A DNA stretch of 64,000 nt, from the NCBI RefSeq assembly GCF_040907265.1, contig NZ_JBFOHP010000002.1, positions 7,626,001 to 7,690,000 of the forward strand. Reading direction: 5' to 3'. Positions 19,272 to 55,868 of the stretch are shown here, one piece after another; position 1 is the stretch's first letter; each line of letters starts with the position of its first letter. The notes under the pieces were generated by a model. That model worked only from the letters and a program-made list of their open reading frames with translations, was not told the DNA's origin and did not search any database. Source of the stretch: Streptomyces sclerotialus. GTDB taxonomy: Bacteria; Actinomycetota; Actinomycetes; Streptomycetales; Streptomycetaceae. Position numbers and translations under genes: made by a program.

Positions 19272-19535
19272 CGCCCTTTCAGCCCAGCTGCCGGTCGAGG
19301 AAGTCGGTGAGCCGGTCCACGGAGGGGTGGTCGAACGTGACCGAGGCGGGCAGCGGCACGCGCAACGCGGTCTCCAGGGCGTTCTTCAGCTCCACCGCGG
19401 CGAGCGAGTCCAGCCCCAGCTCCAGGAAGACCGCGTCCGGCGCCACGTCGTCCGTGCCGTCGAAGTGCAGCATGTCGGCGATCCGGCCCCGCAGGTACGT
19501 GTTGAGTGCCGCCCTGCGCTCCTCGGCGGGCAGCG

Positions 19536-25595
<6,060 letters not shown>

Positions 25596-25969: not shown

Positions 25970-26055
25970 CATGTGTTCCAGCGGTCCGCAGGCAATGGCA
26001 GACTCGGCTGGCCCACACCCGAGAACACGCCTTCCGGCGAAGAATCGAGGAAATG

Positions 26056-29192: not shown

Positions 29193-29197
29193 CCTCC

Positions 29198-30346
29198 ATG
29201 CGCTCCCTGGAATCCGCCCGCACCACCTGCGAGCAGTACCACCCGGGCCTCGGCAAGGCCCTGGAGGAGACCGACCTCATGGACCGGGAACAGGTCGGCA
29301 GCCCGGTCGTCCCGCTCTTCCGCGAGCACGGCGGCTCCGCGCTGCTGGTGCCCGCCGCCTTCGGCGGCCGCGGCGCCGACCCCGTGGACGCCGTACGCGT
29401 CCAGCGGGCCCTCGGCTCGTACTCGCCCTCCCTCGCCGCCGCCGCGACCATGCACCACTTCACGGCCGCGATGCTGTACTCCCTGGCCGGCCGCCCGGAC
29501 GGGCTCACCGCCGCCCAGCGTGACCTGCTGGCCGGCATCGTGCCCGGCCGGAAGCTGATGGCGTCCGGCTGGGCCGAGGGCCGCACGCAGCAGAACATCC
29601 TGGCCCCCGCGGTCTCCGCCCGCCCCGTCGACGGCGGCTACCTCCTCAACGGCGCCAAGAAGCCGTGCAGCCTGTCCCGCTCGATGGACCTGCTCACCGC
29701 GAGCGTCACCGTGCCCGGCGCCGACGGACGGCCCGAACTGGCCGTCGCACTGGTCGCCGCCGGCTCGCCCGGCATCACCGTGCACCCCTTCTGGGGCAGC
29801 GGCGCGCTCGCCGCCGCCGAGAGCGACGAGGTCCGGCTCGCGGACGTGTTCGTGCCCGAGGAACTGGTGCTGCGCACCACGGCCGACGGCGAGGGCCGCG
29901 ACCGGCTCTCCGAGATGCAGAGCGCCGGGTTCGTCTGGTTCGAACTGCTCATCTCCGCCGGGTACTCCGGCGCCGCCGCCGCACTCGTCCAGCGCGTACT
30001 GGAACACGCCCGTGGCAGCGTCACCGACCGGGCCGCGCTCGCGGTCCGCGCCGAATCGGCGTACCTGCTCCTGGAAGGCACGGCCCGCGGGGTCCGCGAC
30101 GGCGACCTGGCGGGCGAGGAAGCGGTCGCCGCCGTGCTCGTCGCCCGGTTCGCGGTCCAGGAGGCCCTGTCCGGCGCCGCCGACCTGGCCCTCGAACTCC
30201 TCGGCGGCATGGACTTCATCCGCTCCCCGGAAGGCGCGCTGCTCGCCGCCGCCGTCCGCCCGCTGGCCTTCCACCCGCCGTCCCGCACCAGCACCGCCGA
30301 ACCGCTGCTCGGTTACTTCGGCGGCGCCCCGCTCGTACTGGCCTGA
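29198..30346 (+). CDS. Acyl-CoA-dehydrogenase-fold flavoprotein, candidate N-hydroxylase
   Basis: A 382-residue protein with the three-domain acyl-CoA dehydrogenase fold: helical N-domain with VPAAFGGRGADP, a beta domain with GYLLNGAKKPCSLSRSMD near residue 150, and a C-terminal helical bundle ending ELLGGMDFI. The usual catalytic Glu region is not obvious. The valanimycin isobutylamine N-hydroxylase VlmH belongs to this fold together with DszC, so in this cluster it may oxygenate an amine with reduced flavin rather than desaturate a thioester. No flavin reductase gene is seen nearby. Alternative: acyl-ACP dehydrogenase. The start ATG at 29198 sits 5 bp after the ALDH stop. Confidence 0.8.
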   Translation: MRSLESARTTCEQYHPGLGKALEETDLMDREQVGSPVVPLFREHGGSALLVPAAFGGRGADPVDAVRVQRALGSYSPSLAAAATMHHFTAAMLYSLAGRPDGLTAAQRDLLAGIVPGRKLMASGWAEGRTQQNILAPAVSARPVDGGYLLNGAKKPCSLSRSMDLLTASVTVPGADGRPELAVALVAAGSPGITVHPFWGSGALAAAESDEVRLADVFVPEELVLRTTADGEGRDRLSEMQSAGFVWFELLISAGYSGAAAALVQRVLEHARGSVTDRAALAVRAESAYLLLEGTARGVRDGDLAGEEAVAAVLVARFAVQEALSGAADLALELLGGMDFIRSPEGALLAAAVRPLAFHPPSRTSTAEPLLGYFGGAPLVLA

Positions 30347-30353
30347 TGGGACG

Positions 30354-30872
30354 ATGCCGGACATGCCGGAGACGATGGAGAGCGCGATGCTCGCGCTCTG
30401 GGACCAACTGACCGGGGCACAGATGCTGCAGGCCCTGGCCGACGGAAGGGTGCCGCACGGCGCCCACCACGGCCTGCTGGGGCTGCGGGTGACCGGAGCG
30501 CGGCAGGGCGCGGTCGAGGAGACCTGGCGGCCCCCGCGGGAGCTCGCCAACTTCGCCGGGAGCGGGGTGCACGCCGGGTACCTCGCCATGGTGCTGGACG
30601 ACGCCTGCTGCGCCGCCGCGATGAGCCACGGGGACCACGCGTACCCGATGGTCACGCTCAGCCTGGACATCGACTTCCTGCGGGCGGTGCGGCCCGGCGA
30701 CACCTGCACGGTGCACGCCGAACTCGTCCACCCGGGCCGGCGCCGCATGGTCGCCAACGCCCGCGTGCTGGACGCGGAGGGCCGTACGGCCGCTCAGGCC
30801 CGCGCGAGCGTCGTCCCGGACACGGACTTCACCGACCGGATGCGGGAAGCGGGGGAAGGGGGCGCGGGATGA
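30354..30872 (+). CDS. PaaI-type hotdog thioesterase
   Basis: A 172-residue hotdog-fold protein. Marks are ANFAGSGVHAGYLAMVLDDACCAAA (active-site helix) and YPMVTLSLDIDFLRAVRPGD, as in the PaaI/YbgC group that hydrolyses acyl-CoA or acyl-ACP thioesters. Three possible in-frame ATGs lie at 30354, 30363 and 30375 and none has a strong ribosome site; the first is given. It overlaps the next thioesterase gene by 4 bp (ATGA), so the two are translationally coupled. It may release or proofread chains. Confidence 0.85.
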   Translation: MPDMPETMESAMLALWDQLTGAQMLQALADGRVPHGAHHGLLGLRVTGARQGAVEETWRPPRELANFAGSGVHAGYLAMVLDDACCAAAMSHGDHAYPMVTLSLDIDFLRAVRPGDTCTVHAELVHPGRRRMVANARVLDAEGRTAAQARASVVPDTDFTDRMREAGEGGAG

Positions 30873-31651
30873 CGCGGCCGGGCCGCTGGTTCCACACGGC
30901 GGAACCCCGCGCGGACGCGGCACGGCAGCTGTTCTTCTTCCCGCACGCCGGGGGCAGTGCCGCGTTCTACCGCCACTGGGCGGCGCTGCTCCCCGGCGTC
31001 GAGGTGCGGGTCGTCCAGCTGCCGGGCCGCGGCGAACGCCACGCCGAGACGCCCTACCGGCGGACGGAACCGCTGGTCGAGGCGTTGCACGAAGCGATCG
31101 AAGCAGAGCTGGACGACCGCCCGTACGCGTTCTTCGGGCACAGTCTGGGGGCGCTGCTCGGCTACCGGCTGGCCGTGGCGCTCGCGGCGGCCGGCGGCAC
31201 GGGACCCGCGCTGCTCGGCGCGTCCGGCTGGGCGCCCGAGCGGTTCCGGCCGGTCGACGCGCTGCTGCCGCTGCCGGACGGGGAGTTCGCCGCGGCGATC
31301 CGGCGCTTCGGCGTGCTGCCGGCGGAGACCGGCACCGACCCGGAACTGCTCGCGCTGATCCTGCCCGCGGTCCGCGCCGACCTCGCCCTGGTCGCCGACT
31401 ACCGCGACGACGGCGCCCGGGTCGGCTGCCCGGTCGTCGCGTACGGCGGCAGCACCGACCCGACGCTGGAGCCCGGCGGGCTCGCCGAGTGGAACTCCCG
31501 TACCCCCTCGTTCCTCGGGGCCAGCGAATTCCCGGGAGGCCATTTCTACCTCACGGAGCACGCCCTCGCCGTCGCGACGGATTTCTCCCGGCACATCCAG
31601 CGGGTTTCACCGGAGAGGGAAACCGATACCGACCGGAAAGCCGGACGATAG
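30869..31651 (+). CDS. Type II thioesterase (alpha/beta hydrolase)
   Basis: A 260-residue external thioesterase typical of PKS/NRPS clusters. It has FFFPHAGGSAAFYRHW near residue 22, the nucleophile elbow FFGHSLGALLGYRLA near 90, Asp in GGSTDPTLEPG near 200, and His in FPGGHFYLTEH near 225. These enzymes clear misprimed acyl groups from carrier proteins. Start ATG at 30869 overlaps the previous stop. The product of the neighbouring single-module PKS is a likely client. Confidence 0.93.
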   Translation: MTRPGRWFHTAEPRADAARQLFFFPHAGGSAAFYRHWAALLPGVEVRVVQLPGRGERHAETPYRRTEPLVEALHEAIEAELDDRPYAFFGHSLGALLGYRLAVALAAAGGTGPALLGASGWAPERFRPVDALLPLPDGEFAAAIRRFGVLPAETGTDPELLALILPAVRADLALVADYRDDGARVGCPVVAYGGSTDPTLEPGGLAEWNSRTPSFLGASEFPGGHFYLTEHALAVATDFSRHIQRVSPERETDTDRKAGR

Positions 31652-31673: not shown

Positions 31674-32483
31674 ATGGTCGAGTTCCGCATTCTCGGTGGC
31701 TTGGAAATGCTCTCCCCGGAAGGCCGTGTCACGGTGGCCGGCGGTTTTCAGCGGATGCTGCTGCAGGCCCTGCTGGTGAGCGAGGGAAAGGCGGTGTCCA
31801 GTGCGACGCTGATGGCCGAACTGTGGGCGGAGTCGGCTCCGGCGGGTGCGGCCAACGCCCTCCAGGCGCACGCCAGCCGGCTCCGCAAGAAACTCAGGAC
31901 GATCGAGCCGGGGCGCACCACACCACGCCTGGTCTGCCTGCCGTACGGCTATCAGCTCCTCATGGACGGCGCCCGGCTGGACGCCACGACCTTCATGGAG
32001 AGCGCGGCGCGGGCCGAACGGCTGCGCGCCGAGGCACCCGAGGAGACGGTCACGCTGCTGCGCGGCGCGCTGCGCCTCTGGCGCGGCGCCGTCTGCGGCG
32101 GCAGCCCCGGCGGGCCGCTCGGGAAGGCCGCCGCCGCGCGCTACGAGGAGCACCGGCTGCGGGCCCTGGAGACGCTGTTCGACAGCGAGCTGCTGCTGGG
32201 CCGGCACGCCGCGGTCCTCGCGGAGCTGCGCGAGGCCCACCTGGCCGACCCCCTGCGCGAACGCTTCTGCGAGCAGCTCATGGTCGCGCTCTACCGCTCG
32301 GGCCGGCAGGCGGAGGCGCTGGACACCTGCCGGCAGACCTGGCAGTGCCTGGTCGAGCAGCTCGGCGTGGACCCGTCCCCGTCGCTGCGCCGGGTGGAGC
32401 ACGCCATCCTGGTCCAGGACCCGGGGCTGGACCGCGGCCCGGTCTCGGCGGTGCGCGCGGCCCGGGTGCCCTCGCGCGGCTGA
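31674..32483 (+). CDS. SARP-family transcriptional activator (first of two)
   Basis: A 269-residue small SARP: an OmpR-like winged helix (residues 1-95; FRILGGLEM, LQALLVSEGKAV, LQAHASRLRKKLR) and a bacterial transcriptional activator domain (about 100-245; LRGALRLWRGAVCGG, LMVALYRSGRQAEALD). Such proteins activate antibiotic pathway promoters by binding direct repeats about one helical turn apart near the -35 position. The window has four such arrays. It follows the type II thioesterase by 22 bp and ends at a shared terminator hairpin. Confidence 0.92.
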   Translation: MVEFRILGGLEMLSPEGRVTVAGGFQRMLLQALLVSEGKAVSSATLMAELWAESAPAGAANALQAHASRLRKKLRTIEPGRTTPRLVCLPYGYQLLMDGARLDATTFMESAARAERLRAEAPEETVTLLRGALRLWRGAVCGGSPGGPLGKAAAARYEEHRLRALETLFDSELLLGRHAAVLAELREAHLADPLRERFCEQLMVALYRSGRQAEALDTCRQTWQCLVEQLGVDPSPSLRRVEHAILVQDPGLDRGPVSAVRAARVPSRG

Positions 32484-32547: not shown

Positions 32548-33612
32548 TCAGGCGGCCCGGCGGTGCCGCCCCGCCCGCTCGTGGTCCGCCCGCATCGGGG
32601 CGCTGACCTCGTGCAGGAAGACGGCGACCTCCCGGTAGGAGGCGGCGAACCCCAGCTCCCGGTACGGCAGGCCGTGCGCCGCGCAGTACGTGCGCACGAT
32701 CTTGCGGCACCGGCCGAGGTTCTGGCGCGGCATCGCCGGGAAGAGGTGGTGCTCTATCTGGTAGTTCAGACCCCCGTAGAGGAAGTCCGTCAGCGGGGAG
32801 GGGCGGACGTTGCGGGACGTCAGCACCTGCCGCTCCAGCCAGTCCAGGGACTCCTCCTCGCCCTCACGGACCGCCATGCCCTTGTGGTTCGGCGCGAAGA
32901 CCAGCCCCAGGTACACCCCGGTCAGCGCCTGGTGGACCAGGAGGAACGCCAGGGCCTTCAGCGGCGGCAGCACCAGCAGCAGGGCGCCCAGGAAGACGAC
33001 CGCCCGGGCCGCCAGCAGGAAGCCCTCCAGCAGGGGGCGGCGCATCACCCCGCGGGCGACCGCCAGCACCGAGGTCTTCTGGATCTTGTACGCCTCCAGG
33101 ACGAGCAGCACGAAGAAGAGCACCGCCTGGTGGCGCACGACGAACCGCTGCCGCGCGGTCCGCTTCGCGTACTGCTTGACGTGGAACACGGCCGTGCGCC
33201 GGGCGATGTCGGGATCGCGGTCGATGTGGTTCGGGTGACTGTGGTGACGGTTGTGGTGGCCCACCCACCACCCGTAGCTGATCCCGTTGACGAGGTTCAG
33301 ATGGACCAGCCCCACCGCGGCCGCCGCCCGCTTGTCGCGGAACATCGCCTTGTGCCCCGCGTCATGGCCCATGAAAGCGCACTGCACGGAGAACAGCGCC
33401 AGATACGCGGCGACGGCCAGCTGGTACCAGGAGTCGCCGACGAGGACGAACGCCGCCAGTCCGGCGCCGAACAGCACCGCGTTCAGCGCCAGCCGGCAGA
33501 CGTAGTGCCGGGGCCGCAGCGCGAGCAGCCCCGCGCCCCTGACCCGGTGGAACAGCTCGTTGAACGGCGCACCGGGCAGCGCGCCGGAACGGTACGGGGA
33601 TACGTAGGTCAT
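32548..33612 (-). CDS. Membrane fatty-acid desaturase-type di-iron enzyme
   Basis: A 354-residue integral membrane desaturase. The three histidine boxes are GHDAGHKAMF near residue 83, GHHNRHHSHPN near 119 and QIEHHLFP near 298, separated by hydrophobic segments, which is the di-iron site of acyl-lipid or acyl-ACP desaturases. The ATG at 33612 is preceded by AGGAGG at 10 bases. It lies 38 bp downstream of the aminoacyl-transferase-like gene and is probably cotranscribed with it. It could place a double bond in the alkyl chain of the product. Confidence 0.9.
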   Translation of the reverse strand: MTYVSPYRSGALPGAPFNELFHRVRGAGLLALRPRHYVCRLALNAVLFGAGLAAFVLVGDSWYQLAVAAYLALFSVQCAFMGHDAGHKAMFRDKRAAAAVGLVHLNLVNGISYGWWVGHHNRHHSHPNHIDRDPDIARRTAVFHVKQYAKRTARQRFVVRHQAVLFFVLLVLEAYKIQKTSVLAVARGVMRRPLLEGFLLAARAVVFLGALLLVLPPLKALAFLLVHQALTGVYLGLVFAPNHKGMAVREGEEESLDWLERQVLTSRNVRPSPLTDFLYGGLNYQIEHHLFPAMPRQNLGRCRKIVRTYCAAHGLPYRELGFAASYREVAVFLHEVSAPMRADHERAGRHRRAA

Positions 33613-33650: not shown

Positions 33651-34649
33651 CTACAGCGCGTTGGCCGCCCGGAAGACGTGGGTCAGCGACCTGAGGGAGG
33701 CCCGTCCGCGGAAGGCGATGTACTCCGGGAACACCGTGTCCGGCGCCCACTTCTCCTTGTAGGCGAGCTGGCTGCGCGCGGGGTAGACGGCCTCGCCGCG
33801 CTCCCACAGCTTGCCCACCAGCCACCGGAACGCCGGGCTGTGACCGGACACCTCATGCTCGCGGGCGAGCCCGGTGAACGGGGTGAAGCCGAAGTGCAGC
33901 CAGCGCACGCCCTCACCCCGGAACACCTCGATCGCATGGCTGTTGATGGCCTCCGCCACCCCCGGCGGCCCGTCGGGGCGGCGCCGGCTCAGATCGTGCA
34001 GCCGGCCCGGACGGTTCCCGTAGACGGGCGAGTACGAGATGTAACCGGCCAGCCGGCCGTCGATGGTGCCGACGAACAGCCGGCGGTGCCGGCGCCCCGC
34101 GCCGCCGTGCTGGCCCACCAGGAACTCCAGCGGCCTGGCGTGCTTCCCCTTGCCGGCGAGCCAGCACGCGTCCAGCTCCCGCAGCGCGCCGTCCCACTCG
34201 TCCGCGGTGGCCTCCCGCACGGTCAGGCCGCTGCGCCGGGCCCGCGAGATCTTGTTCCGGAGCCGTACGAAGCGGGAGCCGCGCAGGCTGAACGAGGCCA
34301 GGTCCACCGCGTAGGACGCGCCGATCTGGTTGACGGTGAAGCCCTCCGCCGCGTACCGCACGGCGTCGGCGTGCTGGAGCTGGATGCCCACCAGCCGCAG
34401 CCGTTTACGGCGCGCGTACCCGGTGAACGCGGCGAGCAGCCGGGAGTAGTCCTCAGCGGGTGCGAAAGGCCCGCCGAACTGGACCAGGCAGCGTCCCGAA
34501 CGCCGGTAGACGATCACGCCGTCCACACCGGGGACGGTGAAATGGCTGTTCCCCTCGTTGAGTGCCAGAAAAGCGCTCGGATTCGCGGAGCCGGTAAATG
34601 TGCTGATGGCGTGGTGAGTCAGAGCGCCCGGGACCGATTCGGTGGTCAT
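33651..34649 (-). CDS. DUF2156/LPG-synthase-type aminoacyl-tRNA-dependent transferase (VlmA-like candidate)
   Basis: A 332-residue protein with the double-GNAT fold of lysylphosphatidylglycerol synthase C-terminal domains: NEGNSHFTVPG near residue 30, VIVYRRSGRCLVQFGGPFAP near 45, then LRNKISRARRSGLTVRE near 130 and HFGFTPFTGLA near 255. It lacks the membrane flippase half of MprF. Enzymes of this fold take an amino acid from aminoacyl-tRNA. In valanimycin biosynthesis VlmA moves serine from seryl-tRNA to a hydroxylamine; the neighbouring VlmJ-, VlmK- and VlmB-like genes make that the best hypothesis. The ATG at 34649 has GGAGGA about 9 bases upstream. Confidence 0.75.
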   Translation of the reverse strand: MTTESVPGALTHHAISTFTGSANPSAFLALNEGNSHFTVPGVDGVIVYRRSGRCLVQFGGPFAPAEDYSRLLAAFTGYARRKRLRLVGIQLQHADAVRYAAEGFTVNQIGASYAVDLASFSLRGSRFVRLRNKISRARRSGLTVREATADEWDGALRELDACWLAGKGKHARPLEFLVGQHGGAGRRHRRLFVGTIDGRLAGYISYSPVYGNRPGRLHDLSRRRPDGPPGVAEAINSHAIEVFRGEGVRWLHFGFTPFTGLAREHEVSGHSPAFRWLVGKLWERGEAVYPARSQLAYKEKWAPDTVFPEYIAFRGRASLRSLTHVFRAANAL

Positions 34650-34758
34650 ACGTGCATTCCTCCGAGCCTGCGCAGTGGACGGGCCGATCTCCGAGTAGAG
34701 CAGTGCGGGACGGCCGCGACAAGTAATTCCCGGGCCGCGGAACGGAAATGGAGCCGCG

Positions 34759-34834
34759 GTCAGTGCGGTGTCAGCGGAATATCAGGAATCGGTCAGGGAG
34801 AGGTCAGGGCCCGGTCAGTGCGCTGGGCCAGTCT
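34759..34834 (+). promoter_or_regulatory. SARP-type operator B: six GTCAG-type repeats at 11-bp period, with -10
   Basis: GTCAG (ATCAG in the third copy) starts at 34759, 34770, 34781, 34792, 34803 and 34814, each exactly 11 bases from the last. A CAGTCT hexamer at 34829-34834 stands 14 bases after the T of the last copy and fits a CAnnnT -10 element. Transcription would then begin at or next to the GTG start codon at 34842, giving a leaderless message. Six copies are more than the two or three usual for SARP sites. Confidence 0.82.
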
Positions 34835-34841
34835 CCTTTCC

Positions 34842-35840
34842 GTGAATCCCTTTCTCTTTCCGTCGAGCGCCCTCATCGTGGCCAACCCGGCGGCCGGCGG
34901 CCACTCCCCGGAACTGGTCGAGGAGCTGGCCGCCCGCTGCCGCGAACGGCTCGATGCGGTGACGGTGCACCGCACCACAGGACCGGGTGACGCCACGGCC
35001 GCGGTACGCCGCGCACTGACCGGAGGGCCCGCCGGGCACGGACCCCAACTGGTGGTGGCGGTGGGCGGGGACGGCACCGCGCACGAGACCGCCGAGGGGC
35101 TGCTCGGCCAGGACGACGGCCCCCGCGCCGCACTGCTCATGATCCCCGCCGGCAGCGCCAACTCCGGCTACCGCATGTTCTGGGACGACCGGCCCTGGCA
35201 GGACGCGGTCGCCATGGTGCTGGCAGGGCGCGCCGCGGTACGCCGCACCGACCTCGCGCGGCTGGCCGAGACCGGTGCGCACGTCTTCCTCGGCTCCTGC
35301 ACGGGACTGGGCGCCGAGATCCTCGCCGCCCGCGCGGCAGCGGACGGTACGACGGCGAACGGCGCGCCGGGCGGCGGCAGTCGGGGCCCCGGCGCGGGCC
35401 GGGAACGCTACGCCCGCCTGCTGGCCGACACCGCGGCCCGCTACCGCCCCTACCCCGGCCGGGTCACCGTCGACGGCGCGGTGCTCGCCGAGGGCCCCAC
35501 CGTCCTCGCCGGCGTCGGCGGCGGGCGCTACCGCGCCGGGCAGTACCTCCTGCTGCCCCGCTCCGAGCCGGACGACGGCCTGCTGGACGTCTGCGTCGTC
35601 GGCGGCCGGACCGACCCCGCGCTGCTGCCCCGGCTGGCCCGCGACGGCAGCCACCTGGACCTGCCGGACACCGCCTACGGCCGTGGCCGGCGCATCGTCC
35701 TGGAGCGGCTGGACGGCGAACGGCTCGTCCTGGAACACGACGGCGAGCTGCGCGACACCATCGCGGCCACCGCCACCTTCGAGGTGGTGCCGGGCGCCCT
35801 GCCGGTCTGGGCCGCGCACCGCGCCCGGCAGGGCGGGTGA
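34842..35840 (+). CDS. Diacylglycerol-kinase-type kinase (VlmJ-like candidate)
   Basis: A 332-residue protein of the DAGK catalytic family. It has ALIVANPAAGG near the N-terminus, the ATP-binding VVAVGGDGTAHETAEGLL near residue 72, MIPAGSANSGYRMF near 100 and a C-terminal beta domain. The known family phosphorylates hydroxyls of lipids; VlmJ of the valanimycin pathway, of the same family, phosphorylates valanimycin hydrate so that the phosphate can be eliminated. The next gene is an MmgE/PrpD lyase, as VlmK is. The GTG at 34842 lies where the upstream -10 element places the transcription start. Confidence 0.85.
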   Translation: MNPFLFPSSALIVANPAAGGHSPELVEELAARCRERLDAVTVHRTTGPGDATAAVRRALTGGPAGHGPQLVVAVGGDGTAHETAEGLLGQDDGPRAALLMIPAGSANSGYRMFWDDRPWQDAVAMVLAGRAAVRRTDLARLAETGAHVFLGSCTGLGAEILAARAAADGTTANGAPGGGSRGPGAGRERYARLLADTAARYRPYPGRVTVDGAVLAEGPTVLAGVGGGRYRAGQYLLLPRSEPDDGLLDVCVVGGRTDPALLPRLARDGSHLDLPDTAYGRGRRIVLERLDGERLVLEHDGELRDTIAATATFEVVPGALPVWAAHRARQGG

Positions 35841-35846
35841 GCCGCG

Positions 35847-37481
35847 ATGTCCCTGCTGGCAGAGGTCGGCGGCTGGGCCGCGCGGCTCACCCCCGACGCG
35901 GTACCCGAACGCGTGCTGCGCCGCGCCGCCAGCCAGGTGCTGTCCCAGCTCGGCGCCGTCCGCGCGGGCGCCGCTCATCCGCTCGGCCGGCGCCTGACGG
36001 CGGCCTTCGGGCCGCCCCTCCAGCGCGACCCGCGGCAGGCCGCGAGCGTCCTCGCCGGCCTCGGCTCCTTCCTGAACCTCGACGACACGGCGTACGCGGG
36101 ACACCTGTCGAACTCCACCGTCGCGGTGCCCCTCGCCTACGCCCACGCCCGGGGGCTGGACGGCCGCGCGCTGCTCACCGCCGTCGTCGCCGCCAACGAA
36201 TGCGCGGCCCGCATCACCGCCGCCGCCACGCTGGGACCGCTGCGCGGCCAGACCGCGCTGCACGCCCACCTCGCGGGCGCGGTCGCCGGGCGGCTGCACT
36301 GCGAGCGCGCCCCGGCGCACCGCTGGACGGACGCGCTCGGCCTCGCGTACGCGCAGCCGCCCTGGCCCCTGATGCACGCCTTCCTCGCGGGCGACGCCCG
36401 GGTGCTCAACGCCTTCGGCCCGGTCCGCACCGGGCTGGACGCCTGCGACGCGGCCGCCGCCGGGCTCGGCGGCCAGCCCGACCTGCTGGAGCACCCCGAC
36501 GGCTTCCTCCGCCGGTTCGCGACCGTACCGCTGCCCGAAGAGGTCACCGCGGGGCTCGGGACCCGCTGGCACACCGAGACGTTCTCGTACAAGCTGCACC
36601 CCGGCGGACCCGGCATCGACGCGGCCGTGGACTGCGCGCTGGACCTCCATTACGACCTGGGCGCCCCGGACGCGGCGCAGCTCGCCACCCTCGTCGACGA
36701 CGTACACGTCGCGGCGTCCCTCTACACGGTGCTCGCCGCACGGCGGGCCCGCCGCTACCTCGACGGGCCGCGCCGGCCGCTCGGCGCCCTGGTCCTGGAC
36801 GTCGCGTACCCGGTGGCCACCGCACTGCTCACCGGGCGGCTGACCGTCGCCGACCTGGAACCGCCGGCCGCCGACGACCCGGTACGCCGGGCGGTGGCCG
36901 GAAAGGTACGGCTGTGCCACGACCCCGGCCTGACCCGTGCGCTCCTCGCCTCCGAGGCACCGTTCGGCGAGGCGCTGCGCCGGGCGGGCCCGGCGGGCAC
37001 GGCGTGGCTGCGCGAGTTCGGCGGCGAGGACCTGGTCCGCACGGCGGGCGAACCGGGCACGCCCGCAGCGGACTTCACGTCCGCGACCAAGGCCACCGGC
37101 GCGCGGGTGACGGTCCGCCTCACCGACGGCCGCACCGCCGTACGCGAGCTGCTGATCCCCTACGGCGCGGCGGGCCCGCACACCCACGCGCACCACGCCG
37201 AGCTGGTACGGGAGAAGTTCCGGGCGCTCGGCGGGCCCGCCCGCGTCGCCGACGCACTGCCCCGCCTGCCGGAGATGAGCGCCGCCGAACTGGCCGCGTG
37301 GACGGCCGCCGCGCTGGACCCGGCAGCCGGGGATCAGGCGGCCGTCAGCGATCCGTCAGGCGTCCGTGCCACTGTGACGGCGCAGTCCCACCGGTCGCCG
37401 GACGGGTCCCTCCCGCGCACCGCCCGGCCCGTCCGGCGCACCGGTCCGGCCGACGACATCCTGGAGGAGCGACTCCCGTGA
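35847..37481 (+). CDS. MmgE/PrpD-family lyase (VlmK-like candidate)
   Basis: A 544-residue protein of the 2-methylcitrate dehydratase (PrpD) superfamily: VLSQLGAVRAGAAHPLG near residue 30, LDDTAYAGHLSNSTVAVPLA near 80, FSYKLHPGGPGIDAAVDCALDL near 245. In valanimycin formation the homologous VlmK eliminates phosphate after kinase action. It starts 6 bp after the kinase gene. The last 50 or so residues (from about 492) are a basic, serine/proline-rich tail with no family match, and that stretch of DNA also carries operator C, so the tail may exist mainly because the promoter does. Confidence 0.85.
   Translation: MSLLAEVGGWAARLTPDAVPERVLRRAASQVLSQLGAVRAGAAHPLGRRLTAAFGPPLQRDPRQAASVLAGLGSFLNLDDTAYAGHLSNSTVAVPLAYAHARGLDGRALLTAVVAANECAARITAAATLGPLRGQTALHAHLAGAVAGRLHCERAPAHRWTDALGLAYAQPPWPLMHAFLAGDARVLNAFGPVRTGLDACDAAAAGLGGQPDLLEHPDGFLRRFATVPLPEEVTAGLGTRWHTETFSYKLHPGGPGIDAAVDCALDLHYDLGAPDAAQLATLVDDVHVAASLYTVLAARRARRYLDGPRRPLGALVLDVAYPVATALLTGRLTVADLEPPAADDPVRRAVAGKVRLCHDPGLTRALLASEAPFGEALRRAGPAGTAWLREFGGEDLVRTAGEPGTPAADFTSATKATGARVTVRLTDGRTAVRELLIPYGAAGPHTHAHHAELVREKFRALGGPARVADALPRLPEMSAAELAAWTAAALDPAAGDQAAVSDPSGVRATVTAQSHRSPDGSLPRTARPVRRTGPADDILEERLP
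37333..37375 (+). promoter_or_regulatory. SARP-type operator C inside the lyase gene, with -10
   Basis: ATCAG at 37333 and GTCAG at 37344 and 37355, exactly 11 bases apart, lie within the 3' coding end of the PrpD-like gene. A CACTGT hexamer at 37370-37375 is 14 bases after the T of the last copy, the same offset as in operators B and D. It should give an internal promoter for the aminotransferase and the genes after it, with a leader of roughly 95 bases. Confidence 0.75.
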
Positions 37482-38758
37482 GTGCTGCGGCGGAAAGCGG
37501 ACCCGGTACGGACGCGGAGACCCTCCGCCTGTACCGGGCCCACCTGAGCAAGGGCCGCGCGACCGTGGCCGAACTGTTCGGCGGCCGGACGGAGGTCGCC
37601 TCGTCCGGCGCCTGGCTCACCACCGGCGACGGCGGGCGGTACCTGAACTGCGGCGGGTACGGCGTGTTCCTGATGGGCGCGAAGCATCCCCTCGTCATGG
37701 CGGAGGTACGCCGCCAGCTCGACGTGCACCCGGTCGCCACCCGCATCCTCCTGGAGCCGGCCGTCGCGCGCGCCGCCGCGGCACTGACCGCGGTCACCCC
37801 GCCCGGCCTGGACCGCGTGCACTTCTCGCTCTCCGGCACCGAGGCGGTCGAGACCGCGCTGAAGCTGGCCCGCGCGAACGGCAGGCGGCACGTCGTCGCC
37901 ACGCACATGGGCTACCACGGCAAGACGCTCGGCGCCCTGTCGGTCTCCGGCAAGGACGTCTACCGGGAGCCGTTCCGCCCCCTGCTGGACGGCGTCACCC
38001 ACGTCCCGTACGGGGACGCCGACCTGATGGAGAAGGAGCTGGCCGAACGGCCCGGCGAGGTCTGCGTGATCGTCGAGCCGGTGCAGGGTGAGGGCGGCGT
38101 GGTCCTCCCGCCGGACGGCTACCTCCGCGACGTCGCCGCACTGTGCCGCGCGTACGGCGGGTTCCTCGTCCTGGACGAGGTGCAGACCGGCCTGGGCCGG
38201 CTGGGCACGTGGTGGGGCGCGGACGCGGCCGGGGTGGTGCCCGACGTGCTGGTCGCGGGCAAGGCACTGGGCGGCGGCGTCGTCCCGGTCTCGGCGGCGA
38301 TCGCCACCCCCGAGGCCTTCCGCCCGTTCGACAAGGACCCCTACCTCCACACCGGCACGTTCTCCGGCGCCCCGCTCCTCATGGCCGCCGTACAGGGCGC
38401 GGTCCGCGCCGTACAGGAGGACGACCTCGTCGCGCGTGCCGCGGCGCTCGGTGCCCGGCTGCTGCCGCCGCTCATCGAGATCGCCGCGCGCAACGTCCCG
38501 GGGCTGGTCACCGAGGTACGCGGCCGCGGGCTGCTCATCGGGGTCGAGCTGGTGGAGGCGGGTCTCGCGGGCGAGCTGCTGATCGAACTCTTCAACCACG
38601 GCGTGGTGGCCAACCACTCGATGAACGGCAGCAACGTGGTGCGGTTCACCCCGCCCGCCGTGCTCACCGACGCGGACGTGGACCATCTGCTGGCCGCCTT
38701 CGACGCGGCCACCCGCGACCTGGTCGAGCACGCTGCCCGGATGCCGGAAAGGCGGTAG
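37478..38758 (+). CDS. Class III PLP-dependent aminotransferase
   Basis: A 426-residue omega-aminotransferase of the ornithine/putrescine/GABA group. It has FSLSGTEAVETALKLARA near residue 115, HMGYHGKTLGALSVSG near 143, VEPVQGEGGVV near 200, the cofactor Asp in LVLDEVQTGLGR near 235, and the PLP lysine in VAGKALGGGVVPVSA near 265. The start GTG overlaps the lyase stop (GTGA) and has GGAGGAG about 8 bases upstream. In this setting it could aminate a fatty or polyketide aldehyde to the primary amine that is then N-oxidised. Confidence 0.92.
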   Translation: MSAAAESGPGTDAETLRLYRAHLSKGRATVAELFGGRTEVASSGAWLTTGDGGRYLNCGGYGVFLMGAKHPLVMAEVRRQLDVHPVATRILLEPAVARAAAALTAVTPPGLDRVHFSLSGTEAVETALKLARANGRRHVVATHMGYHGKTLGALSVSGKDVYREPFRPLLDGVTHVPYGDADLMEKELAERPGEVCVIVEPVQGEGGVVLPPDGYLRDVAALCRAYGGFLVLDEVQTGLGRLGTWWGADAAGVVPDVLVAGKALGGGVVPVSAAIATPEAFRPFDKDPYLHTGTFSGAPLLMAAVQGAVRAVQEDDLVARAAALGARLLPPLIEIAARNVPGLVTEVRGRGLLIGVELVEAGLAGELLIELFNHGVVANHSMNGSNVVRFTPPAVLTDADVDHLLAAFDAATRDLVEHAARMPERR

Positions 38759-38763
38759 CAGAC

Positions 38764-39264
38764 ATGCGGCACGTGACCGTGGAAGCGCTCATCCCCGACG
38801 TCCCGGCGGAGGACGTCTTCGATGCCGTCCTGCACTTCGAGCGCTACCCCGAACTGACCCCGCACGTACGCTCCGCCGTGGTCCACGAAGGACCGCCGCG
38901 GCCCGGCGGCAGCTCCAGCTGGGAACTGTACTTCCGCAGCGGGCTGCTGCGCTGGACGGAGCGCGAGGAGTACGACCGGGACGGGCTGCGCATCGCCTTC
39001 CGGCAGACCGACGGCGACTTCGACCAGCTGTCCGGCACCTGGCTGCTCCGGCAGACCGGACCGGACTGCGCCCTCCGCTTCGACGCGGACTTCTGCTTCG
39101 GCATCCCCAGCATGGCCGGCATCCTCGACCCGATCGCCGCGCGCGTCATCGAGGAGACCATCGCCTGGGCGGTCACCGGCATGTTCCCCGGCGTCCGGCT
39201 CGGCGCCGGGACCGGCGCGGCGGCGGTGTCCGGTACGGGCCGGGCCGCCGGCACGGGGGAGTGA
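38764..39264 (+). CDS. SRPBCC/polyketide-cyclase-type protein
   Basis: A 166-residue START-like protein: VTVEALIPDVPAEDVFDAVLHFERYPEL at the N-terminus, a beta sheet core with WELYFRSGLLRWTEREEYD, and the long C-terminal helix. These folds bind hydrophobic ligands, and members act as cyclases, dehydratases or carriers. It sits between the aminotransferase and the small membrane protein, and its stop overlaps the region of the next start. Its role is unknown; binding the lipid amine intermediate would fit. Confidence 0.82.
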   Translation: MRHVTVEALIPDVPAEDVFDAVLHFERYPELTPHVRSAVVHEGPPRPGGSSSWELYFRSGLLRWTEREEYDRDGLRIAFRQTDGDFDQLSGTWLLRQTGPDCALRFDADFCFGIPSMAGILDPIAARVIEETIAWAVTGMFPGVRLGAGTGAAAVSGTGRAAGTGE

Positions 39265-39269
39265 GAACG

Positions 39270-39806
39270 GTGGACCAGGCCAACCCCTTCGAGACCCGCA
39301 CCACCTTCCTGCTGCACCGGGCCGAGTACCTGGCCGGGCTCGCCGCGACGGTCGTGCTGATCGTGCTGCACTTCGACGAGATCCGCTGGCTCCCGGCGCT
39401 GCTCCTCTTCGCGTACATCGACGTCATCGGCTACCTGCCCGGTGCGCTCGCCTACCGCCGCAGCCCCGACCGGCGCATTCCCAAGGTCTACTACGTCCTC
39501 TACAACACCATGCACAGCCTGATCACGGCGGGCGCCGTCGCCGCGCTGTGGTGCTGGCTGGTGCGCCCCGAGTGGGCCCTGCTGGCGCTGCCGCTGCACC
39601 TGTGCGGCGACCGCGGCCTGTTCGGCAACTTCCTCAAGCCCTTCGCCCTGCCTTTCGAGCCCGTGCCCGAGCCGCTGTACCGGCGGCTGGCCGACGCCCT
39701 GCGCCCCCGCGCGGCGGGCACCAGGGTCCCGGCCCCCGCGGCCGTCCCGGCGCCGGCCGGCGGGCCGGTCCGCACCCACCACAGGAGGACACGCAGCGAT
39801 GACTGA
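39270..39806 (+). CDS. Small multispanning membrane protein of unknown function (possible VlmO-like role)
   Basis: A 178-residue protein with four to five hydrophobic segments (about residues 20-60, 75-110, 112-125) and a conserved-looking charged pattern, HFDEIRW, CGDRGLFGNFLKPF, ending in an alanine/proline tail. I do not recognise a named family. The valanimycin cluster also has a membrane protein (VlmO) whose role is unsettled, and the placement beside the di-iron gene invites that comparison, but I cannot confirm homology. GTG at 39270 is chosen because GGGGGAG lies 9 bases upstream; GTG at 39261 is possible. It overlaps the next gene by 8 bp. Confidence 0.7.
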   Translation: MDQANPFETRTTFLLHRAEYLAGLAATVVLIVLHFDEIRWLPALLLFAYIDVIGYLPGALAYRRSPDRRIPKVYYVLYNTMHSLITAGAVAALWCWLVRPEWALLALPLHLCGDRGLFGNFLKPFALPFEPVPEPLYRRLADALRPRAAGTRVPAPAAVPAPAGGPVRTHHRRTRSDD

Positions 39807-40779
39807 CGCCGCCACACCCGCAGCGGACTGGGACACGGCGCCCGGACTCCTCGACGGGGCCAAGACCCTCGACCTCACCGCGCAGCAGTGCGACCTCGCG
39901 TACTGGCTCCGCCACGTCGCCCAGGGCACCCTGCGCGGCCGCGCGGTCACCGGACACGCCGACGACGCGCCGGTCCCCGCGTACATGAAGGAGCCGGGCC
40001 CGCTGCGCGAGGCCCTCACCCTGGAACTCGGCTTCCGTTCGGTGGCCGAGGAGATGGCCACCCGGGCACTCGGTCATTACGTCGCCAACGCCCCCGGCAT
40101 CGCCGAGCTGGAGTTCTACGCCACGCAGCTGCTGGACGAGGCCCGGCACGCCCGGGTCTTCCGCGAGCACCTGGTCGAACTCGGCCACCCCGCGCGGACG
40201 TTGGTACAGGACATCGACGAGATGGCCGCCGACTACCGCACGCGGGTGCTCCGCCCGATCGAGGAGTACTGCCTGGAAGTCGTCCGCGACCGGGCCGACT
40301 TCGCGGGCGGCGTGGCCGTCTTCACCCTCATCGTCGAAGGCGTCCTCGCGCCCGCCGCCGAACTCAGCGAGCGCAAGTGGGACCCGCTCGACCCGGCCGC
40401 CGGGGAGATCGCCCGCGGCGCCGCCATCGACGAGATCCGCCACCTCACCGTCGGCAGTTCGATCCTCCGCGACCACCTTGCAGCGCACCCCGAGTACCGG
40501 CCGCGGCTGCTGGACATCCTGCGCGAGGGCCGGAAGCTGTGGGACGAGCTGCCCGACGCCGAGTACGTCCTGGCCCGCGAGGAGCTCTTCCAGGAGGGCA
40601 TGCGGCAACACGCCGACGTGGTCGGCGACCACGAGGTCTGGCCCGGTCGCCGGCTGCTCGACACCACCCCCGAGGAGCGGTACGAGACGGCCGGGCGCTG
40701 GACGGACGAGATGGCCGGGGTCCGGCTGGTCCACATGGGGCTCCCGGAGGCCGTCGCGGTACTGGGCGGAGAGGGCTGA
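39799..40779 (+). CDS. Ferritin-like di-iron protein (VlmB-like candidate)
   Basis: A 326-residue all-helical protein with a clear di-iron set: Glu in LGFRSVAEEMATRAL near residue 78, ExxH in LLDEARHARVF near 115, Glu in FTLIVEGVLAP near 178, and ExxH in IDEIRHLTVG near 215. This resembles the VlmB-like proteins of azoxy pathways and more broadly N-oxygenases and aldehyde-deformylating-type enzymes. It probably performs the N-N bond forming or N-oxidation step on the serylated hydroxylamine; that is inferred from the neighbours. AGGAGG lies well placed before the ATG at 39799. Confidence 0.8.
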   Translation: MTDAATPAADWDTAPGLLDGAKTLDLTAQQCDLAYWLRHVAQGTLRGRAVTGHADDAPVPAYMKEPGPLREALTLELGFRSVAEEMATRALGHYVANAPGIAELEFYATQLLDEARHARVFREHLVELGHPARTLVQDIDEMAADYRTRVLRPIEEYCLEVVRDRADFAGGVAVFTLIVEGVLAPAAELSERKWDPLDPAAGEIARGAAIDEIRHLTVGSSILRDHLAAHPEYRPRLLDILREGRKLWDELPDAEYVLAREELFQEGMRQHADVVGDHEVWPGRRLLDTTPEERYETAGRWTDEMAGVRLVHMGLPEAVAVLGGEG

Positions 40780-40788: not shown

Positions 40789-41820
40789 GTGAACGGTGAC
40801 CAGCTGACCCGGGCCGGCGTGCCCGCCGCGGTCGTGGCCGGAGTGGGCGGCCACGTGCCGCCCGGCGTGCTGACCAACGACGACCTCAGCGCCCGCCTGG
40901 ACACGACGGACGAGTGGATCCGTTCCCGGACCGGCATCGCCCGGCGCCGTGTCGCCCCGCGCGGCACGGCCACCTCCGACCTGGCGGTGGCGGCCGGCCG
41001 GCGGGCTTTGCGCTCCGCGGGCTCGCCCACGGTGGACGCGGTGCTGGTGGCCACCATGACGCCGGATCATCAGGCGCCGGCCACCGCGCCGGAGGTCGCC
41101 GCACGGCTGGGCCTCGGTGACGTGGCGGCCTTCGACATCGGTGCGATGTGCTCCGGGTTCGTCTACGGGCTCGGCGTCGCCTCCGGAATGATCGCCGGGC
41201 GCGTCGCGGAACGCGTCCTGCTCATCGGCGCCGAGGTGCTGACCACGGTCGTCGACCCGGAGGACCGTTCGGTGGCGGCGCTCCTGGCCGACGGGGCGGG
41301 TGCGGTGGTGCTGCGCGCGGGCAGGCCGGACGAGCCGGGCGCGGTCGGCCGCGTCGTCCTCGGCAGCGACGGCACCCGTGGCGAACTGCTCAAGATCGCC
41401 GGCGGCGGCTCCCGGGAACGGCAGAGCGGCCACCCGCCGGCGCCCGGCAGCGCGTACTTCCGCATGCGCGGCCGGGAGGTCTTCCGGCAGGCCGTGGAGC
41501 GGATGTCGGACGCCTCACGCACCGCACTGGAAGCCGCGGGCTGGAAGAGCGGCGACGTCGACCGGCTCGCAGCGCACCAGGCCAACGCCCGCATCCTGGC
41601 CGCGCTCGGCGCCGAACTCGACATCCCCGCCGAGCGGCAGCTCAGCAACATCGCCGACACCGGCAACACCGCCGCCGCCTCCGTCCCCCTGCTGCTGGCC
41701 GACAGCGCACGGGACGGTGGGCTCCTGCCCGGCCACCGGCTCCTGCTGACCGCCTTCGGCGGCGGCCTCACCTGGGGCGCCACCACCCTGGTGTGGCCGG
41801 ACGTGACCCCCTGCCACTGA
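40789..41820 (+). CDS. 3-oxoacyl-ACP synthase III (FabH-like)
   Basis: A 343-residue KAS III. Catalytic residues are the Cys in IGAMCSGFVYGL near residue 121, His in AAHQANARIL near 264 and Asn in DTGNTAAASVP near 294. KAS III enzymes start chains by condensing an acyl-CoA with malonyl-ACP. GTG start at 40789 with GAGGG upstream. It begins a KAS III-ACP-KAS II trio placed after the azoxy-like genes, so it probably makes or extends an acyl unit for this product rather than housekeeping fatty acids. Confidence 0.93.
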   Translation: MNGDQLTRAGVPAAVVAGVGGHVPPGVLTNDDLSARLDTTDEWIRSRTGIARRRVAPRGTATSDLAVAAGRRALRSAGSPTVDAVLVATMTPDHQAPATAPEVAARLGLGDVAAFDIGAMCSGFVYGLGVASGMIAGRVAERVLLIGAEVLTTVVDPEDRSVAALLADGAGAVVLRAGRPDEPGAVGRVVLGSDGTRGELLKIAGGGSRERQSGHPPAPGSAYFRMRGREVFRQAVERMSDASRTALEAAGWKSGDVDRLAAHQANARILAALGAELDIPAERQLSNIADTGNTAAASVPLLLADSARDGGLLPGHRLLLTAFGGGLTWGATTLVWPDVTPCH

Positions 41821-41860
41821 CAGCGGCGCGGCGCCGCCGGGACTTCCGGCGCGCACGGCT

Positions 41861-41914: not shown

Positions 41915-41928
41915 TCCGAGGAGCGACC

Positions 41929-42159
41929 GTGTTCGAGCAGCTGAAGGAGATCCTCGCCGGCAAGCTCCAGGTGCCGGCCGACCTGATCACCATGGAGGCC
42001 ACGCCCGAGGCCATCGAGCTGGACTCCCTGGCCGTCGTCGAGCTCTCCCTCGTCCTGGACAAGGAACTCGGCATCAAGATCAGTGACGACACCCTCGCCC
42101 AGGCCGGCACCGTCGGCGACATCGTCCGGCTCATGGAGGAGCAGGGGGCGGCCCTCTGA
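41929..42159 (+). CDS. Acyl carrier protein (second free ACP)
   Basis: A 76-residue ACP with the phosphopantetheine serine in IELDSLAVVELS near residue 39, the normal size for a discrete type II ACP. GTG start at 41929 has GAGGAG 6 bases upstream. The stop TGA shares its last base with the KAS II ATG (TGATG), so the two are translationally coupled. It should carry the chain for the neighbouring KAS III and KAS II. Confidence 0.93.
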   Translation: MFEQLKEILAGKLQVPADLITMEATPEAIELDSLAVVELSLVLDKELGIKISDDTLAQAGTVGDIVRLMEEQGAAL

Positions 42160-43379
42160 TGCCCGGCGCTGAGGCGGCCGTCACCGGCATCGGGCTGGTC
42201 AGCCCGGCGGGCATCGGCACCGCACCGAACTGGGAGACGCTCTGCGCGCCCAAGCCCGCCGCCGCCCTGGACCCGGAGCTCGACGGCGTACCGGTACGGC
42301 TCTCCTGCCGGGTGCCGGACTTCGACCCGGCCGCGCTCCTCGGGGCGCGCCGGGCCCACCGGCTGGACCGCTGCGTCCAGTTCGCGCTGGTGGCCGCGCG
42401 CGAGGCGCTCGCCGACGCCGGCCTGGACCCGGCCGGCTGGGACGGCGCACGGGTCGGCGTGGTGCTCGGCTGCGGACTCGGCGGACCCGCCACCCTGGAG
42501 CGCGAGCACCAGGTGCTGCGCGAGGAGGGCGCCGAGTGGGTCTCGCCCCTGCTGCTGGCGATGCATCCGGCCGGCATGCTGGCGGGCCAGGTGGCGATCG
42601 AGTGCGGCGCCCGCGGTCCCAACCTCGTGGTGAGCACCGCCTGCACCTCGGGCACCGCCGCCATCGGTGTGGCCAGGGACCTGCTCGCGCTCGGCCGCTG
42701 CGACGTCGTGCTGGCCGGCGGGGCCGAGGCCCCCGTCACCCCGCTGACCGTCGCCGGCTTCGCCCAGATGGGCGCCCTCTCCCGGCGCCACCACGACCCG
42801 TCGGGCGCGTCCCGCCCCTTCGACGCGGACCGGGACGGCTTCGTGACGGGGGAGGGCGCCGGACTGCTGGTACTGGAGCGCCCCGAGCACGCGCGGGCCC
42901 GCGGGGCACGCGTACGCGCCCGTATCGTCGGTCACGGGGGTACCGCCGACGCGCACCACATCACGGCCCCGCACCCCGAAGGCCGGGGCATCGAGGCCGC
43001 GATGCGGGCGGCGCTCGCCGACGCCGACGCGTCCCCGGACGCGGTGGCGCACGTCAACGCCCACGGCACGGCCACCCCGCTCAACGACCGCACCGAGGCC
43101 CGCGTGGTGCGCCGGGTGCTCCCGGGCGGTCCGCTGGTGACCTCCACCAAGGGCGTCACCGGCCACCTGATCGGCGCTGCCGGTGCGGTGGAGGCCGCGT
43201 ACACCGTCCTGACCGTGGAACACGGCCTGGTGCCGCCGACCGCCAACCTCGACCGGCCGGACCCGGCCGTCGACCTCGACCTCGCCACCGCCCCCACCCG
43301 CCGCAGCGTCGGCCTGGCCCTCACCCACTCCATCGGCTTCGGGGGCCAGAACGCGGTCCTCGCGGTGGCCGCAGCCTAG
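42159..43379 (+). CDS. 3-oxoacyl-ACP synthase II (KAS II/KS-alpha-like)
   Basis: A 406-residue thiolase-fold condensing enzyme. The active-site Cys is in VSTACTSGTAAIG near residue 165, the histidines in NAHGTATPLND near 302 and TKGVTGHLIGAAG near 335, with FGFGG-like IGFGGQNAVL near the end. It would elongate chains on the adjacent ACP. No chain-length-factor partner gene is present, so this is an FAS-like rather than an aromatic type II PKS pair. A strong hairpin follows the stop. Confidence 0.93.
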   Translation: MPGAEAAVTGIGLVSPAGIGTAPNWETLCAPKPAAALDPELDGVPVRLSCRVPDFDPAALLGARRAHRLDRCVQFALVAAREALADAGLDPAGWDGARVGVVLGCGLGGPATLEREHQVLREEGAEWVSPLLLAMHPAGMLAGQVAIECGARGPNLVVSTACTSGTAAIGVARDLLALGRCDVVLAGGAEAPVTPLTVAGFAQMGALSRRHHDPSGASRPFDADRDGFVTGEGAGLLVLERPEHARARGARVRARIVGHGGTADAHHITAPHPEGRGIEAAMRAALADADASPDAVAHVNAHGTATPLNDRTEARVVRRVLPGGPLVTSTKGVTGHLIGAAGAVEAAYTVLTVEHGLVPPTANLDRPDPAVDLDLATAPTRRSVGLALTHSIGFGGQNAVLAVAAA

Positions 43380-43439: not shown

Positions 43440-44234
43440 CTACAGCACCGGGATGTCGTCCTGGCGGAGGATGGCCCGTTCCAGCGCGCGCAGCTCCCGG
43501 CCCGGTTCCAGGCCCAGTTCGGCCACGAGGTGGTGCCGGGCCCGCTGGTAGGAGGCCAGCGCCTCGGCCTGCCGGCCCGACCGGTACAGCGCCGTCATCA
43601 GATAGCCGCTCAGCCGCTCGTTCAGCGGGTGCTCGCCCACCAGGCCGGTCAGTTCGTGGACCAGCGCCCGGTGCCGGCCCAGCCGCAGCTCCAGCTCGAT
43701 GCGCTTCTCGGCCGCCGCGATCCGCTCCTCCTCCAGCTGCGCCGCCGCCCTGCCCACCGCGGCACCCTGCAGTCCGGACAGCGCGGGCCCGCGCCACAGG
43801 CCGAGCGCGGCACGGTACAGCTCGGCGGCCTGCTCCCCGCAGCCCCGTGCCGCCGCCAGATCGGCGGCCGCCACCTCCTCCCGGAACACGTCCACGTCCA
43901 GGTCACCGGGGTCGGTGTGCAGGACGTAGCCGTGCGTACGGGTCTCGATCCGGCGGCCGTCCTGTGCCGCGTCGGCCAGCTTGTGGCGCAGCTGGGAGAT
44001 GCAGATGTGGATCTGGCTGCGCGCGGTGGCCGGCGGCCGTTCCGCCCAGACCGCTTCGATCAGTCCGGCCACCGGTACGACGCGCCCGGCACTCAGCAGC
44101 AGGGTGGCGAGGATCAGCTTCTGCCGTGCCGCGCGCAGGGGCAGCGGGCATGGTCCGTGGCCCACCTCCAGGGGGCCCAGGAGGCGGAAGAAGGGCGGTT
44201 CGGCGCGTCGGGGACAGGGGTCGGAAGGGTGCAT
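43440..44234 (-). CDS. SARP-family transcriptional activator (second)
   Basis: A 264-residue SARP with an N-terminal winged helix (FFRLLGPLEV, QKLILATLLLSAGRVV, IHICISQLRHKLAD) and the BTAD domain (YRAALGLWRGPALSG, LMTALYRSGRQAEALASYQ). It differs enough from the first SARP not to be a recent duplicate. It closes the biosynthetic region on the right and its upstream gap (44235-44472) holds operator D for the divergent genes. Either SARP could be the one that reads the 11-bp repeats. Confidence 0.92.
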   Translation of the reverse strand: MHPSDPCPRRAEPPFFRLLGPLEVGHGPCPLPLRAARQKLILATLLLSAGRVVPVAGLIEAVWAERPPATARSQIHICISQLRHKLADAAQDGRRIETRTHGYVLHTDPGDLDVDVFREEVAAADLAAARGCGEQAAELYRAALGLWRGPALSGLQGAAVGRAAAQLEEERIAAAEKRIELELRLGRHRALVHELTGLVGEHPLNERLSGYLMTALYRSGRQAEALASYQRARHHLVAELGLEPGRELRALERAILRQDDIPVL

Positions 44235-55800: not shown

Positions 55801-55827
55801 GGCCCACTCCTGGTACGGATACACGAA

Positions 55828-55860: not shown

Positions 55861-55868
55861 TGCGGCGT

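Follow-up and report, generated by a model that had tools for sequence, protein, structure and literature searches.

Which compound would be made by a locus that sets a valanimycin-like gene cassette beside a reducing polyketide synthase (PKS)? The question is raised by a stretch of 64,000 nucleotides (hereafter the window; G000:C2:7626001-7690000) on a large contig of an 8.28-Mb Streptomyces genome, in which a preliminary description had seen a possible new azoxy lipid pathway. Codon-use gene calling gave 52 genes in the window, a 76-aa acyl carrier protein (ACP) was added later, and all 53 genes were scanned with Pfam. Judged from their sequences, the genes at 15706-44165 (~28.5 kb, Table 1) very probably form an aliphatic azoxy cluster of the valanimycin/KA57-A family, and an orphan subtype of it. 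The azoxy lipid part of the proposal was supported by the core enzymes, while "new pathway" proved too strong, because the family has already been surveyed, with VlmJ/VlmK pairs and ketosynthase III (KASIII) listed among the frequent neighbours of particular VlmA groups (PMC9379638); the locus is a subtype of that known family. It probably makes an azoxy lipid, and no product has been assigned to the subtype in the open-access literature.

The DUF2156 protein, the DAGK-family kinase with its MmgE/PrpD neighbour, the class III aminotransferase and the ferritin-like protein on which the preliminary description was built were all recovered in their places by gene calling and Pfam, as were the desaturase, the aldehyde dehydrogenase (ALDH) and the reducing PKS. 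Beyond these, a VlmO homologue, a VlmH-type protein and a KASIII-ACP-FabF set (40789-43379) were found; VlmO, the enzyme reported to form the N-N bond, had been missed. VlmO is the membrane-bound hydrazine synthase of valanimycin, and the available text of PMC11705231 reports D51, H82, H110, and D114 as essential. The window homologue, a 178-aa membrane protein to which Pfam gave no match, carries the four residues at identical numbers; they are invariant in a 42-row alignment and present in 81/81 rows from related loci, the window included. A model built from the 42-row alignment, of modest confidence (mean predicted local distance difference test score 69.5), has four long helices and a short one, and places D51 on helix 2, H82 on helix 3, and H110 and D114 on helix 4; a search of the PDB with this model for a fold relative returned no match with E <4. 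H16 and E19, on the first helix, were also invariant in the 42-row alignment and kept in 79 of the 81 rows (unaligned in the other two), and may be further metal ligands.

The VlmB homologue matched a PDB chain named 'Putative VlmB homolog' (6d9f) with 450 bits (E 4e-134), both ExxH motifs were present in 84/84 rows (window and one duplicate pair included), and many of its homologues carry the source name 'VlmB-like protein'. An unrelated AurF-type N-oxygenase was considered for this ferritin-like protein and rejected, as the Pfam AurF match was sub-threshold (E 0.00097) against the 450 bits of the VlmB match. The VlmH-like protein was DszC-like by PDB comparison, and it shares the locus with a VlmA homologue, the pairing used in the 2022 survey (PMC9379638).

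Further, these proteins were compared with Kitasatospora setae (G538), which has two azoxy loci on G538:C1, one at ~997-1014 kb and one, of PKS/KASIII type, at 3.05-3.08 Mb. The former carries VlmA, VlmH-like, VlmO, flavin reductase, VlmB, pyridoxal phosphate (PLP) decarboxylase, seryl-tRNA synthetase (SerRS), VlmK, and VlmJ genes, and was classed as valanimycin-type because the decarboxylase, SerRS and flavin reductase stand beside the Vlm set. The window proteins were 46-65% identical to those of this locus (VlmA 61, VlmH 60, VlmO 63, VlmB 65, VlmJ 46, and VlmK 57%), in agreement with the valanimycin-like cassette that had been described. Homology searches could have scattered the proteins among unrelated clades, which the preliminary description had named as a refutation; the homologues fell with azoxy loci instead. 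Read from this enzyme set, an azoxy core is predicted with high confidence.

The gene order of 15706-44165 is kept in four other Streptomyces, S. violens, S. niger, S. sclerotialus, and S. fumigatiscleroticus, and the genes called within the block in these relatives are homologues of window genes, the sole unmatched one in S. violens being a gene of 76 codons at the position of the added ACP. Because S. violens and S. niger have most window genes in common with this genome, the cluster edges were set from S. sclerotialus and S. fumigatiscleroticus, which are more distant. Their match to the window covers 15706-44165 only, where the gene order is unchanged except for the missing desaturase (32548-33612) and the proteins are 68-84% identical; the genes outside it mostly differ. 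For the same reason, taking the whole stretch shared with S. violens as the cluster was dropped.

Named genomes were scanned for VlmB relatives; 174 were found, and the best 80 loci were used. Full 10-kb flanks were available for 62 of these, four being close kin. The counts that follow are lower bounds, because genes more than 10 kb from VlmB were missed. Among the 62 full-flank loci, VlmO and VlmH-like genes were each found in 60, aminotransferase and ACP each in 58, KASIII in 57, FabF in 56, ALDH in 54, flavin reductase in 48, VlmA in 47, desaturase in 42, SerRS in 38, PKS in 34, VlmK in 21, and VlmJ in 19, and VlmJ or VlmK occurred along with KASIII in 18. The block typical of the PKS/KASIII class (ALDH, VlmH, aminotransferase, cyclase-like protein, VlmO, VlmB, KASIII, ACP, and FabF, with a reducing PKS) is completely present in the window, in a different order, as the thioesterases, SARP, desaturase, and VlmA/J/K lie between VlmH and the aminotransferase. 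The azoxy gene block recurs in order in dozens of actinobacterial genomes, a valanimycin-type locus and PKS-bearing loci among them, so the grouping is not due to chance, and the amine route through a reducing PKS, ALDH and aminotransferase that had been suggested is a link common to many relatives.

VlmB itself was detected in 58/392 genomes of the genus (E up to 1e-60) and, with the K. setae query, in 35/297 genomes of the family (E up to 1e-100), the own genome included in both; its nearest named relatives are from Streptomyces. In a tree of 84 VlmB proteins, built by a quick method and with long branches flagged, the five species that carry the block formed a lineage of their own (98) inside the larger half. 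KASIII was nearly universal in this half; the other half, to which the valanimycin-type row belongs, held seven KASIII-bearing loci. As far as gene content and this tree tell, the locus is a distinct subtype: its VlmB belongs to a separate lineage, the cluster holds neither SerRS nor flavin reductase, and a permuted CoA-transferase gene adjoins the PKS gene.

What these genes would make can be proposed step by step; the sequence shows which enzymes are encoded, with their key residues, their order and how far they are conserved, and we infer all chemical steps in this organism from characterised homologues. The reducing PKS with ACPs, FadD and thioesterases would give an alkyl chain, which the ALDH-family enzyme would bring to the aldehyde and the class III aminotransferase to the amine; amine formation by such a pair has been proposed for azodyrecin (PMC9379638). 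Homologues of the ALDH (62-72%) and of the desaturase (52-65%) occur in azoxy loci outside the five-species clade. The VlmH-like enzyme would N-hydroxylate the amine with a flavin reductase encoded elsewhere in the genome, and VlmA would load the hydroxylamine with an amino acid, probably serine carried by the ordinary seryl-tRNA of the cell. The resulting ester would be rearranged by VlmO to a hydrazine, and VlmB would oxidise the latter to the azoxy group, in line with the available text of PMC11705231. VlmJ would then phosphorylate the serine hydroxyl and VlmK eliminate the phosphate to leave an exo-olefin, as stated for valanimycin (PMC9379638). Finally, KASIII, ACP and FabF would extend the carboxyl with malonate, and the desaturase would set the alkene adjoining the azoxy group. 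Our best guess for the product is a 1-alkenyl azoxy compound with a PKS-derived chain, in which VlmJ/VlmK would have dehydrated the serine part and malonate would have extended it.

These parts differ in strength. Serine follows from VlmJ and VlmK, which need its hydroxyl group, and by analogy with valanimycin the serine-and-dehydration part is likely; the two genes are adjacent here, and a phmmer search for VlmK relatives in the PDB returned none. VlmK and the aminotransferase overlap by 4 bases in the window, and in S. violens one frame of 971 codons was called over both (L136 701-3616), a possible fusion on sequence grounds. Malonate extension is the weaker assignment and stands at about even chances; it was drawn from the KASIII set, which is absent from the valanimycin-type locus and not described for azodyrecin, both with unextended products. 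KA57-A is reportedly extended by an acetate-derived carbon.

Several points weigh against the proposed pathway. Pfam found no SerRS and no flavin-reductase domain among the 53 window genes, as the preliminary description had noted; in the whole genome, the sole match to an azoxy-type SerRS (38% identity) and all flavin-reductase matches (29-39% identity to a VlmR) lie outside the window, and neither gene is in the 15706-44165 block of the four relatives. The VlmR flavin reductase was a highly conserved neighbour in the 2022 survey (PMC9379638), although not a strict one here, as 14 of the 62 full-flank loci showed none within their flanks, four of them close kin of the window. The desaturase is missing at its place in S. 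sclerotialus and S. fumigatiscleroticus. The KASIII set could help to build the alkyl chain instead of extending the serine part. In this assembly the terminal ACP is not in frame with the rest of the PKS, which could impair the cluster in this genome even though there is a stand-alone ACP.

If the KASIII set did serve the alkyl chain, the product would be a long-chain valanimycin: KASIII-ACP-FabF and the PKS would build only that chain, leaving the serine part as a 2-azoxyacrylate with a free carboxyl. The VlmJ and VlmK genes stay side by side and their products are related to the valanimycin-type pair, and in the neighbour counts above KASIII, ACP and FabF are about as frequent as ALDH and aminotransferase, both of which fit such a product. 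However, the long-chain amines of azodyrecin have been proposed without a described ketosynthase (PMC9379638 main text), and 33 kb of the valanimycin-type locus, whose product is unextended, hold no KASIII set, and we regard this alternative as unlikely. Pfam found no VlmD-type PLP decarboxylase domain among the 53 window genes, in keeping with the absence of valine decarboxylation that had been remarked.

A further variant was considered, in which KASIII-ACP-FabF turn the carboxyl next to the VlmJ/VlmK exo-olefin into a methyl ketone via malonate, with the permuted CoA-transferase activating the acyl group, to yield a long-chain azoxy vinyl ketone. Such a product is improbable; if made, it would be an electrophilic azoxy-enone of a kind not described in the open-access literature, formed without a dedicated SerRS or flavin reductase.

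The PKS has the acyltransferase (AT) motif HAFH, which we take to be of malonyl type, and the ketosynthase (KS), dehydratase (DH) and ketoreductase (KR) motifs are present. In S. violens and S. niger, the gene calls made here gave the PKS, terminal ACP included, as a single open reading frame (2085 and 2080 codons, respectively), but in the window that ACP is read in a different frame. This contrast could mean that this strain has a silent or broken locus and that the compound comes from close relatives only. Yet the sequence around the break (~19536-19640) is rich in G and C, and the break may have arisen in assembly; the remaining genes are open and conserved, and the separate ACP may serve, which leaves a silent locus with a rather small chance.

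The CoA-transferase beside the PKS matched its profile in permuted order: positions 155-323 come first in the protein (22.4 bits, slightly below the threshold), followed by 1-201 (143.9 bits). Three genomes, taken from the coordinates to be S. hygroscopicus, S. mashuensis, and S. triculaminicus, have homologues with 62-64% identity; these lie away from the VlmB loci of those genomes, close to genes for a PKS, FadD and a thioesterase and, in two of the three, for an ACP. The absence of CaiB genes from the 80 loci is uninformative on the clade, because the clade's own CaiB gene lies beyond the 10-kb flanks. In a FadD tree, the FadD of the five species grouped with those of CaiB-PKS-FadD modules (98/96), with long outgroup branches, while KS-AT identity was 57-61% to azoxy PKSs vs. 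56-57% to CaiB modules, and the outgroup of the KS-AT tree was very long. An exchange of the PKS part for that of such a CaiB-PKS-FadD module, for which the FadD tree spoke, was dropped: the KS-AT tree did not decide the matter, and KS-AT identity slightly favoured the azoxy PKSs.

Table 1. Genes of the conserved block, with positions in the window.
Gene product	Position	Strand	Evidence
Alpha/beta hydrolase (lipase class 2), at one edge of the block	15706..16632	+	Pfam; same place in four relatives
Luciferase-like monooxygenase	16651..17634	-	Pfam, blastp
FadD-type acyl-CoA/ACP ligase	17661..19265	-	Pfam, tree
ACP segment, out of frame with the PKS; within the PKS in S. violens and S. niger	19279..19473	-	Pfam, frame comparison
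Type I PKS, KS-AT-DH-ER (enoylreductase)-KR	19536..25595	-	Pfam, motifs
Stand-alone ACP	25611..25919	-	Pfam
Circularly permuted class III (CaiB-type) CoA-transferase	26053..27504	+	Profile matches
ALDH family, proposed fatty acyl reductase step	27528..29192	+	Pfam; homologues
VlmH-like flavin N-hydroxylase, acyl-CoA dehydrogenase fold	29189..30346	+	Pfam, K. setae homologue, PDB
Hotdog-fold thioesterase	30354..30872	+	
Type II thioesterase	30869..31651	+	
SARP regulator	31755..32483	+	
Fatty acid desaturase, proposed source of the 1,2-olefin adjoining the azoxy group	32548..33612	-	Pfam, homologues
VlmA-like aminoacyl-tRNA:hydroxylamine aminoacyltransferase, LPG_synthase_C/DUF2156	33651..34649	-	Pfam E 4e-60; homologues
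VlmJ-like DAGK-family kinase, DAGK_cat + YegS_C	34878..35840	+	Pfam; GGDGT motif at residue 63
VlmK-like MmgE/PrpD lyase, N + C domains	35847..37481	+	Pfam, homologues
Class III aminotransferase, proposed aldehyde to amine	37478..38758	+	Pfam E 1.6e-80
START/polyketide cyclase-like protein	38764..39264	+	Pfam
VlmO-like membrane hydrazine synthase, D51/H82/H110/D114	39270..39806	+	Residues, alignments, model
VlmB-like di-iron azoxy synthase, two ExxH motifs	39799..40779	+	PDB match, alignments
Ketosynthase III (FabH-like)	40789..41820	+	Pfam
Stand-alone ACP, 76 aa	41929..42159	+	Pfam
FabF-like ketosynthase	42159..43379	+	Pfam
Second SARP regulator (BTAD domain), at the opposite edge of the block	43440..44165	-	Pfam, relatives

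Some further features were noted in and around the block. S. sclerotialus (L146 3336-4445) and S. fumigatiscleroticus (L151 10359-11471) carry another desaturase-like gene, 27-28% identical to that of the window, at the far end, just beyond the lipase end of the block. The luciferase-like gene has homologues of 54-61% identity in the valanimycin-type and PKS-type loci of K. setae and in S. coeruleorubidus. Outside the block, at 52262-58631, two ABC transporter genes come after a gene of RamC type (kinase/lanthionine synthetase-like), an arrangement that resembles the SapB (ram) morphogen operon.

Azoxy natural products are few although the genes are common, with 179 VlmA/VlmH pairs in 3,146 actinobacterial reference genomes in the 2022 survey (PMC9379638). 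A bounded and conserved orphan subtype with identifiable core enzymes could tie such genes to a product, and this cluster could show what VlmJ/VlmK and the KASIII set do together.

Compared with the valanimycin-type locus of K. setae, with which it has a luciferase-like gene and a SARP in common, the window adds the PKS, ALDH, class III aminotransferase, KASIII/ACP/FabF, and desaturase, and is without the decarboxylase, SerRS and flavin reductase. The azodyrecin clusters (ady/azd) resemble it in their dehydrogenase, transaminase, N-hydroxylase, VlmA/VlmO/VlmB homologues and desaturase, and in having no aminoacyl-tRNA synthetase, but they differ in a methyltransferase and a flavin reductase, with alanyl-tRNA proposed as the donor (PMC9379638). 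VlmJ/VlmK, PKS and KASIII are not described for them in the main text of that paper.

The core of the window was as close or closer (52-72%) to two PKS/KASIII azoxy loci, of K. setae and S. coeruleorubidus, and its VlmB was 72 and 71% identical to theirs, respectively. Both loci carry PKS, FadD, ALDH, aminotransferase, KASIII, an ACP-sized gene, FabF and desaturase; that of K. setae, to which KSE_27350 (P0156) belongs rather than to the valanimycin-type locus, also shares the luciferase-like protein, type II thioesterase, VlmH, cyclase-like protein, VlmO, VlmB, VlmJ, VlmK, and VlmA with the window. Unlike the window, it has SerRS, flavin reductase, a cytochrome P450 (P450) and two more KASIII-like genes; both azoxy loci of K. 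setae have their own SerRS and flavin reductase. No permuted CoA-transferase was found in 36 kb of the PKS/KASIII locus, a stretch that cuts the PKS. In S. coeruleorubidus, whose core block was 48-74% identical to the window, there are SerRS, flavin reductase, P450, ferredoxin and short-chain dehydrogenase/reductase (SDR) genes not in the window's block, and CaiB and hotdog-thioesterase genes were not seen in the 56 kb of its locus.

That the nearest architecture is the PKS/KASIII class also speaks for a KA57-A/maniwamycin analogue, in which the olefin made by VlmJ/VlmK would be reduced to a methyl group and the C4 part turned into an amino-diol or ketone like that of KA57-A. In the labelling pattern of KA57-A, serine C3 is said to become a methyl group. 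The P450, ferredoxin and SDR genes of S. coeruleorubidus are missing from the window's conserved block, however, and such an analogue is doubtful. According to the available text of PMC6662830, the S. rochei KA57-A cluster (SRO_1819-1850) is listed as azoxyalkene and type I PKS; like the window, it has homologues of VlmA, VlmO and VlmB together with such a PKS (PMC6662830; PMC9379638). The likeness to KA57-A is drawn from these published descriptions and from S. coeruleorubidus, whose gene spacing appears to resemble that of the S. rochei locus.

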